Source: Halanaeroarchaeum sulfurireducens (GTDB taxonomy: Archaea; Halobacteriota; Halobacteria; Halobacteriales; Halobacteriaceae). Taken from it: a DNA stretch of 64,000 bases. The position numbers and the translations under genes are program-made. Location: assembly GCF_001011115.1 (NCBI RefSeq), contig NZ_CP008874.1:310001-374000 (forward strand), written 5' to 3'. Numbering within the stretch: position 1 is the first letter of the stretch; each line of letters begins with the position of its first letter. The notes below the pieces were generated by a model, which saw only the letters and a program-made list of their open reading frames with translations, was not told where the DNA came from and searched no databases. This document shows, in pieces, positions 3,031 through 40,850 of the stretch.

Positions 3031-3115
3031 CGTATCCCCGTCCCCAGAACGCTTCGCGTTCTGGTGTGCGAACGAGACGCTTTGCGTCTCGTCAACGCCG
3101 TAAACGGCGAGGTTT
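3031..3115 (-). repeat. Double-hairpin repeat, subfamily I, copy 1
   Basis: Three palindromes in a row: 3044-3064 (CCAGAACGC-ttc-GCGTTCTGG), 3073-3091 (CGAGACGC-ttt-GCGTCTCG) and 3096-3109 (CGCCG-taaa-CGGCG). The order and linkers match, in inverse orientation, the copy at 40761-40850, with only a few differences, mostly in the loops. It lies between the tnpB left end and a solo right end, in the 327-bp gene-free gap 2922-3248, so it probably belongs to a nested or decayed IS605-type unit. Confidence 0.75.
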
Positions 3116-4313: not shown

Positions 4314-4507
4314 GGGTTTGTCCGTGAATTCAGTAGGGTTGCTAGACGTATTAACCCGGAAGATGGCACAGCCGAATTAGGCCCAATTCAGCCGTGTTAA
4401 ACCGTCTCGCCCCCGATTCGGTTCGATCACGGTCCGCCAGTATGGCCCACCCACCCCCGTCTAACGGAAACGATCGACCGCTTTTCTACAGGCTGAGCAG
4501 GCCGAGT

Positions 4508-4583
4508 GCCTCGGGTCGTACGGAAGACAACGTCTTCCCTGATGACGAGACGCTTTGGGTCTCGGACCACTTGACCCCGAGGC
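4508..4583. repeat. Cloverleaf-like double-hairpin repeat, subfamily II, copy 1
   Basis: An outer pair GCCTCGGGTC (4508-4517) / GACCCCGAGGC (4573-4583) encloses two hairpins: 4522-4538 (GGAAGAC-aac-GTCTTCC) and 4546-4564 (CGAGAC...GTCTCG, with one mismatch near the loop). The linker between the hairpins (CTGATGA) and the 3' flank (ACCACTTGACCCCGAGGCGGT) are nearly identical to the copy at 20620-20700, while stem bases differ in a compensating way. Confidence 0.75.
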
Positions 4584-4636
4584 GGTTCACCATTGTTCCC
4601 GGTCGGGAATGGGTTTGCTTCGTCGAATTGGCCCAA

Positions 4637-10713: not shown

Positions 10714-10745
10714 TTGACATCCCCCCCGCGCGTGAACACGCGGGA
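10714..10745 (-). mobile_element. Right end of the decayed tnpB element
   Basis: TTGACATCCCCCCC followed by a CCCGCG...CGCGGG-type hairpin, equivalent to 1555-1590. The bases that follow (TTGGGATATTAGGGTTTGCA at about 10770-10789) match those following the intact element, but the two 7-bp hairpins present there are missing here. It lies next to the promoter of the E1alpha operon. Confidence 0.65.
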
Positions 10746-10778
10746 ATCCCACGGCACCGCACCGCTTAGGTTGGGATA

Positions 10779-11210
10779 TTAGGGTTTGCAGTCCACCACT
10801 TGTTCCTGCGGTTGGAATCCGCTGGACAAGTCGTATAGGTAGACTCCAGGCTGTGCCAACCAGCCGGTACTCCTATCCCCGTCCAAACTGGCCGAAGACT
10901 CGGAGTTACTTTCGTTGATGTTGAGGCGGATGTTCTCCGCCCCGTTCACGTCTGCGTTGAACGCCCAATCACACTCCTCGCACACGTACAACCCGCGTTC
11001 AACACGCTGACTGTCCTCTTTCCGACCACACACGGAACACGTCTTGCTCGTGTCGCTCTCGTCCACTTCCACGACTTCGATACCCTCGACTTTCGCTTTG
11101 TACGTGAGAACCTTGGTGAAGCGGTCGAACGCCCACCCGTGCAGGTCGAGGTTTCCGTGCCGACCCCAGTTCTTCGCCTCGCCGTTGTCGTCCTCGCGGA
11201 CGTCGACCGT
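10779..11210 (-). pseudogene. tnpB: 5'-truncated tnpB remnant
   Basis: The last 140 or so residues of a TnpB are intact: a VDVREDDNGEAKNWG segment (equivalent to QIREDENGDSRNWG of the complete copy), the zinc ribbon CSVCGRK...CEEC, and RuvC-III (NADVNGAENI) with its Asp, down to a C-terminus EQVVDCKP like the complete copy's EQVGCKP. The N-terminal ~280 residues, including RuvC-I, are gone; upstream the frame runs into the 3' end of the thi4-like gene, so no functional nuclease can be made. The remnant and the intact copy at 1653 differ at many sites, so they are separate insertions. Confidence 0.85.
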
Positions 11211-20242: not shown

Positions 20243-20735
20243 GACCCAATCTGTTTCGCTTTCGCGTATATATCTTGTCGTGAAACGAGAATATCTCCGG
20301 TGGTCCAGCAAGCACGGCTCGAATTCCTCGACGGACACCGCCTGAGCCGAACGCTTACTCCTCTTCTCCGTGCCGCCCACCGCTACCCACGACGCCGAAG
20401 AGGGCCCCAGTTTTCGTCATCCCCGGATTCCGGTAGCCGATCGCGAAGTTCCTGGAAGTCCTGGGTGGGACGATCGATTTCACGAGATCCACGACCATCC
20501 GGGCGCGAGACGCTACATCTGCGGGCCCCGCTCCATCGATCCCACTCATCCGATCCACAACCGTCGACCAGTCAGAGCGCTGACCGTGTTACCCGGCTAG
20601 AACGGGAGTCCACTGACAAGCCTCGGGGTCGTCCGAGACGGCAAGGCCGTCTCGTGATGACGAGAGAGCTTTGCGCTCTCGAACCACTTGACCCCGAGGC
20701 GGTGGACCTGAGTCGATCTGATCGCTGTCACGCTA
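20243..20735. other. Gene-free gap with a cloverleaf-like repeat
   Basis: Contains the GT87 promoter (TATA at about 20264-20270) and the repeat at 20620-20700. No ORF is accepted on either strand. Confidence 0.6.
20620..20700. repeat. Cloverleaf-like double-hairpin repeat, subfamily II, copy 2
   Basis: A perfect 11-bp outer stem, GCCTCGGGGTC (20620-20630) / GACCCCGAGGC (20690-20700), encloses hairpins 20634-20654 (CGAGACGGC-aag-GCCGTCTCG) and 20661-20681 (CGAGAG...CTCTCG, one mismatch). The 3' side (GAACCACTTGACCCCGAGGCGGT) is the same as in copy 1 at 4508-4583 except for one base, while stem sequences differ and remain paired, which suggests conservation of structure. Confidence 0.8.
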
Positions 20736-40760: not shown

Positions 40761-40850
40761 AACCCCGCAGTTTACGGCGTTGACGAGACGCTTCGCGTCT
40801 CGTTCGCACACCAGAACGCTTCGCGTTCTGGGGACGGGGAGGAAGCCGAC
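40761..40850 (+). repeat. Double-hairpin repeat, subfamily I, copy 2
   Basis: Reverse-complement relative of 3031-3115: hairpins 40783-40803 (ACGAGACGC-ttc-GCGTCTCGT) and 40811-40831 (CCAGAACGC-ttc-GCGTTCTGG), preceded by GCAGTTTACGGCG and followed by GGGACGGGGAGGAAGCCGAC, which resembles the last bases of the IS605-type right end (GCGGGGAGGAAGTCAA). It borders the start codon of the RNase R-like gene. Confidence 0.75.

Follow-up and report, generated by a model that had tools for sequence, protein, structure and literature searches.

Two-hairpin modules, probably mobile, nested in tnpB-type transposon remnants of Halanaeroarchaeum sulfurireducens

The inner hairpins of two cloverleaf-like repeats, located at 20620–20700 and 4508–4583 in a 64,000-nucleotide stretch of Halanaeroarchaeum sulfurireducens DNA (hereafter the window; NZ_CP008874.1, positions 310,001 to 374,000), were identified as copies of a small two-hairpin module. 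Judging from sequence comparison, this module is probably a mobile element that has been moved in trans and is nested here in remnants of tnpB-type transposons. A first-pass annotation had described both repeats, and their sequences, coordinates and folds were reproduced, with stems that covary over many copies. RNA folding gave z = −7.4 for 20610–20710 (0 of 200 shuffles equally good) and z = −2.2 for 4495–4595 (7 of 200), and folding as single-stranded DNA gave z-values of −6.9 and −7.3 for the two strands of the 20620 copy and of −3.2 and −2.9 for those of the 4508 copy. Both copies thus paired better than shuffled sequence; pairing no better than in shuffles, together with a covariance search without matches elsewhere, was what the annotation had named as grounds for abandoning the structure. 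The 4508 copy was partly decayed, its outer stem being 1 base shorter, the first pair of hairpin 1 being lost (C versus C), and hairpin 2 containing mismatches. The outer stem and the inner hairpins had been taken as one unit; they are separate, as the inner part is an insert within the outer palindrome. The components are located in the window as follows:

20589–20619 (+): what is left of a tnpB 3′ end with its stop codon (TTACCCGGCTAGAACGGGAGTCCACTGACAA), alignable to the ends and stop codons of tnpB in L028, L116 and L032
20620–20628 (+): near-terminal palindrome, 5′ arm (GCCTCGGGG), which is also present at both the left and the right ends of tnpB elements
20629–20686 (+): two-hairpin module insert, 58 nt, with borders set by filled and empty sites in relatives
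20634–20654, 20655–20660 and 20661–20681 (+): hairpin B, linker and hairpin C of this module
20690–20700 (+): 3′ arm of the near-terminal palindrome, GACCCCGAGGC, which pairs with 20620–20628 and adjacent bases
20701–20707 (+): decayed right-end tail, GGTGGAC (GGTTCAC or GGTTGAC in relatives)
4486–4507 (+): left end of an IS1341/IS605-type element (CTACAGGCTGAGCAGGCCGAGT), a 94–100% match to tnpB-element left ends in G010 and G022
4508–4515 (+): 5′ arm of the near-terminal palindrome, GCCTCGGG, the point of fusion of the left and right ends
4516–4569 (+): two-hairpin module insert, 54 nt, with hairpin B at 4522–4538 and hairpin C at 4546–4564, placed against empty left ends
4570–4590 (+): right end CTTGACCCCGAGGCGGTTCAC (3′ arm and tail); the same tail occurs in tnpB-element right ends and in the terminal-only copy L091

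When the window was searched with covariance model R1, matches were obtained at 20628–20687 (72.2 bits, E = 6.9e-21) and 4515–4570 (59.9 bits, E = 6.8e-17). Both window copies are most likely relics without activity, because the right end is decayed at 20701 and pairs are lost at 4508.

A haloarchaeal IS200/IS605 (IS1341, tnpB-type) element is the source of the outer stem GCCTCGGGG...CCCCGAGGC, which is its near-terminal palindrome. This palindrome was found near the ends of tnpB elements in relatives as GCCTCGGGG-CTTGA-CCCCGAGG, and it is common to the left and right ends of TnpB-encoding elements. Left ends of the relatives' tnpB elements start with CTACAGGC.GA.CAGGCCGAGT, and those of L079, L080 and L081 contain no inner hairpins. 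The stretch 4486–4590 is a terminal-only remnant, in which the left end is joined directly to the right end. The stretch 20589–20707 is a 3′ remnant of a tnpB element with the tnpB stop codon retained, because the 31 bases preceding the 20620 copy align with the tnpB 3′ end and stop of the three loci listed above; no tnpB was found within 1.5 kb of the 20589–20619 remnant. The H. sulfurireducens genome has a third close copy, which lies at a tnpB 3′ end. The IS605-type origin proposed by the annotation accordingly holds for these TnpB-associated terminal-only and 3′-end remnants, but not for the covarying part, which is a separate module. The tetranucleotide CTAC recurs at the left border of the host, where synteny is lost in relatives and no empty site for the host element itself was found. 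Orthology between the 4508 copy and a copy in G020, both of which lie upstream of the same gene, was considered and set aside, as synteny breaks at the element and the flanks differ, a pattern that fits shared ancestry as well as independent insertion. Elsewhere in the window, a TnpB gene with PF07282 and PF01385 occupies 1653–2921 (−), and the PF01385 match has a genome counterpart at 888128–888466 in an equally long open frame. A sub-threshold match to Rfam sot0042, a haloarchaeal sense overlapping transcript RNA, was also observed at 10724–10911 (−) (57.5 bits versus a gathering threshold of 88), just upstream of which lies a sequence resembling a tnpB C-terminus.

The module has the layout TCGTTC-hairpin-GTGATGAC-hairpin-GAACCA, is 54–60 nt long, and is transposase-free. 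Its conserved parts are GTCGTTC, the linker GTGATGAC and GAACCAC, and the two stems differ in sequence while their pairing is kept. The insertion point is G^C, without target duplication; the G before and the C after the module were found in 69 of 75 distinct contexts, and the base preceding the G varies. These borders were obtained by comparing filled and empty sites. A filled left end (L088) and an empty one (L079) have matching flanks, giving the junction GCCTCGGGG^CTTGACCCC. Right ends of tnpA/tnpB elements provided two filled sites (Natrarchaeobaculum sulfurireducens AArc-Mg and Halovenus salina) and four empty ones (Halalkaliarchaeum sp. AArc-CO, Natrialbaceae archaeon AArc-T1-2, Halostagnicola larsenii and Haloarcula sinaiiensis), in which the junction CAAAGAGG^CCCCATCC is exact and there is no duplication. 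Within the genome of H. sulfurireducens itself, one tnpB has 18 residues inserted in frame that its nearest paralogue lacks, and the model places a module at this point. An orthologous Haloarcula locus with conserved flanks contains the module in two species and lacks it in one, where the left border is inexact because ~10 further bases to the left of the module are also absent from the empty copy. In principle, empty sites could be precise deletions. The IS1341 palindrome constitutes 16 of the 75 distinct contexts by a simple rule, and many others are different repeats. Outside this palindrome, the complementarity of insertion flanks did not exceed that of mismatched flanks (p = 0.755), so that insertion into palindrome loops is unsupported there and was rejected as a general rule. 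The element in L026, which already has a module in its right-end palindrome, carries another at 1340–1395 across the tnpB stop codon.

In the mechanism we propose for the window copies, the non-autonomous module would enter the loop of the host's near-terminal palindrome between G and C without target duplication. It would be mobilised in trans by a putative enzyme, the likeliest substrate being DNA folded as a single strand or a cruciform, and after insertion it would also be carried along with the spreading host repeat. Transcription within tnpB elements would include it in the omega-RNA region. Counting against mobility, neither a mobilising enzyme nor a transposition event in near-identical strains was observed. 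A Y1 TnpA of the usual type is disfavoured as the enzyme because no 4–5 nt target precedes the insert, the flanking G and C alone being shared in place of the fixed target that normally flanks the left end. A broader proposal can be advanced only tentatively, namely that haloarchaea as a whole may carry ~60-nt transposase-free mobile modules recognised by structure, including at least one further two-hairpin family, which a putative enzyme would insert as folded DNA at G^C without duplication and which would repeatedly colonise TnpB guide-RNA regions.

Alternatively, the double hairpin may belong to the omega-RNA scaffold of TnpB as an integral component under selection, so that the window copies would be relict or stand-alone omega-RNAs. 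The module is indeed located directly 3′ of tnpB in sense orientation in L002, L026, L027, L028 and L032, and haloarchaeal omega-RNAs contain a right-end hairpin (PMC12558985). It can also occupy the region of tnpB elements that corresponds to the omega-RNA or sotRNA of haloarchaeal TnpB (Rfam sot0042, PMC12558985), but it is missing from close relatives of a host element and was found away from tnpB. An omega-RNA part is expected at the 3′ tnpB end, on the sense strand and in all members, whereas the module has left-end, reversed and non-tnpB copies, occurs inside a tnpB frame, and runs antisense to tnpB in the L156/L172 right-end family; by the simple rule, the IS1341 palindrome also covers only 16 of the 75 contexts. 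We regard this alternative as unlikely. The annotation's relict omega RNA survives to the extent that the remnants overlap the omega-RNA position, but the covarying hairpins are a separate module with many non-IS605 contexts.

The annotation had recognised two copies. The H. sulfurireducens genome has six confident copies (E ≤ 1.4e-11), located on contig 1 at 330628, 314515, 1147265, 961839, 983822 and 1487186. The covariance search that the annotation had proposed gave matches in 358 of 392 genomes of the order at a threshold of E ≤ 0.01, and among the matches listed most were far below this value. A phylum-wide sample of 197 genomes yielded matches in 33 members of the order and in one (E = 1.5e-5) of the ~160 genomes outside it. 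All of the genome-contig matches listed were haloarchaeal, and so was every named genus among 34 plasmid records with the module, in which most annotated copies were intergenic. No module match was detected in phage records, or in viral contigs with one exact sequence pattern. The annotation had suggested that matches restricted to TnpA/TnpB ends would support a mobile element; this restriction was not observed, as many contexts are non-IS605. Haloquadratum walsbyi C23 contains at least 10 copies within one family of palindrome-associated transposable elements (PATEs), as a fixed inner part outside its terminal palindrome, and Halorubrum copies have hundreds of flanking bases in common, which indicates that part of the copy number reflects the spread of host repeats. 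The host repeats of Halorubrum and Haloarcula (GGGACTNAAAGGGGC..arms..GGGGCTTT; L123–L142, L191, L201, L204 and L222) have outer arms that vary between copies and stay complementary, with TATA-like boxes beside them, and tandem units occur at times.

Covariation of the stems was evaluated on two alignments. In 24 copies, 95.8% of the cells were paired with 63 both-side changes (shuffled mean of 17, 0 of 500 as high), and in 129 distinct rows, 97.8% were paired with 355 both-side changes (shuffled mean of 101). The former figure is the cleaner one, because the 129-row alignment was fitted to the model and holds both strands of some places. Over the full arms, 1438 cells comprised 1398 Watson–Crick pairs, 17 G-T, 9 A-C and 14 other combinations, and G-T was not significantly more frequent than A-C (17 versus 9, p = 0.08). 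Hairpins B and C share one small set of stem sequences, and the orthologous pair L191/L201 exhibited three uncompensated changes in hairpin B. The covariation is hence real, and the stems stay paired despite base changes, as had been claimed in support of selection on RNA or single-strand DNA structure. It does not by itself demonstrate RNA selection, because G-T and A-C are about equally rare and the changes in the orthologous copy are uncompensated; recognition of a DNA structure, or correction of the arms by template switching, would fit as well. One could suppose that the module is not mobile and that its hairpins grew and changed in place, through gene conversion among repeats combined with template switching; concerted changes in both arms would be accounted for in this way. 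The nearly complete Watson–Crick pairing, the few G-T and A-C cells, and the single small set of stem sequences serving both hairpins are in line with such an origin, but dozens of unrelated sites have the same conserved ends and linker, with borders that are exact and with empty counterparts, making it improbable, more so than the omega-RNA scaffold. Once a mobile module has been inserted, its arms may still be shaped by template switching. Least probable of all is a selected RNA, either an independent structured small RNA or an RNA regulatory element, for which the strong covariation and the intergenic position of most annotated plasmid copies could be quoted, but in which one would not expect two strands that fold about equally well, G-U not clearly favoured over A-C, uncompensated hairpin B changes in L191/L201, and variable presence at homologous sites. 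Neither window copy matched an Rfam family. A box C/D sRNA reading of TGATGA was also rejected, as sequence inspection revealed no suitably placed D box.

Several known systems resemble the mobile module in part. The REP elements of bacteria, associated with RAYT (TnpA_REP) transposases, are short hairpin repeats that probably depend on a transposase acting in trans on their single-stranded DNA. The module would differ from them in consisting of two hairpins with a fixed linker and in being restricted to haloarchaea, and neither a RAYT partner nor a fixed tetranucleotide was identified for it. The PATEs and terminal-only IS605-type elements of Haloquadratum have near-terminal palindromes and no target duplication, and their cores are deleted by recombination between the two palindromes to give fused ends (PMC3119063). 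This fused-end form corresponds to the host of the 4508 copy, with the difference that the described forms are 52 bp and that here the module sits inside the palindrome. The SMR-A repeats of Haloquadratum (HqIRS42, 43 and 55) are transposase-free, ~110 bp in length, have prominent inverted repeats and no target duplication, and occupy near-terminal palindromes in PATEs and IS605-type elements as inserts; their mobilisation was termed enigmatic in 2011 (PMC3119063). The module is likewise a transposase-free insert without target duplication. By the simple rule, 16 of its 75 contexts are at such a palindrome, and many others are different repeats. It was not assigned to SMR-A because its length of 54–66 bp differs, being about half of ~110 bp, in a comparison made by description. 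Among open-licence papers, PMC3119063 was the only one found on small mobile repeats in haloarchaea, and novelty is thus not proven. Exact borders, a target dinucleotide, filled and empty pairs in named strains, and a covariance model are now in hand for the module, so that the question of its mobilisation becomes testable. Covarying hairpins beside tnpB genes are not necessarily guide-RNA structure, and the module can confound omega-RNA annotation.

Other two-hairpin repeats were also observed. A second family, GTCCCCAGAACGC..GCGTTCTGGTGTGCGAACGAGACGC..GCGTCTCGTCAACGCCGTAAAC, is present in the window at 3040–3105 (+) and 40775–40840 (−), with relatives in L022/L151 and L156. The related module in L156 is inserted relative to the empty L172 (CAGCATCG^GTGTGG) with no evident duplication. 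Yet another type of two-hairpin insert, the third (TTCTTGGAAATC..GATTTCCAATGGTCGAAAAATC..), lies at ~1150–1205 of L172 in this transposon right end and is missing in relatives.
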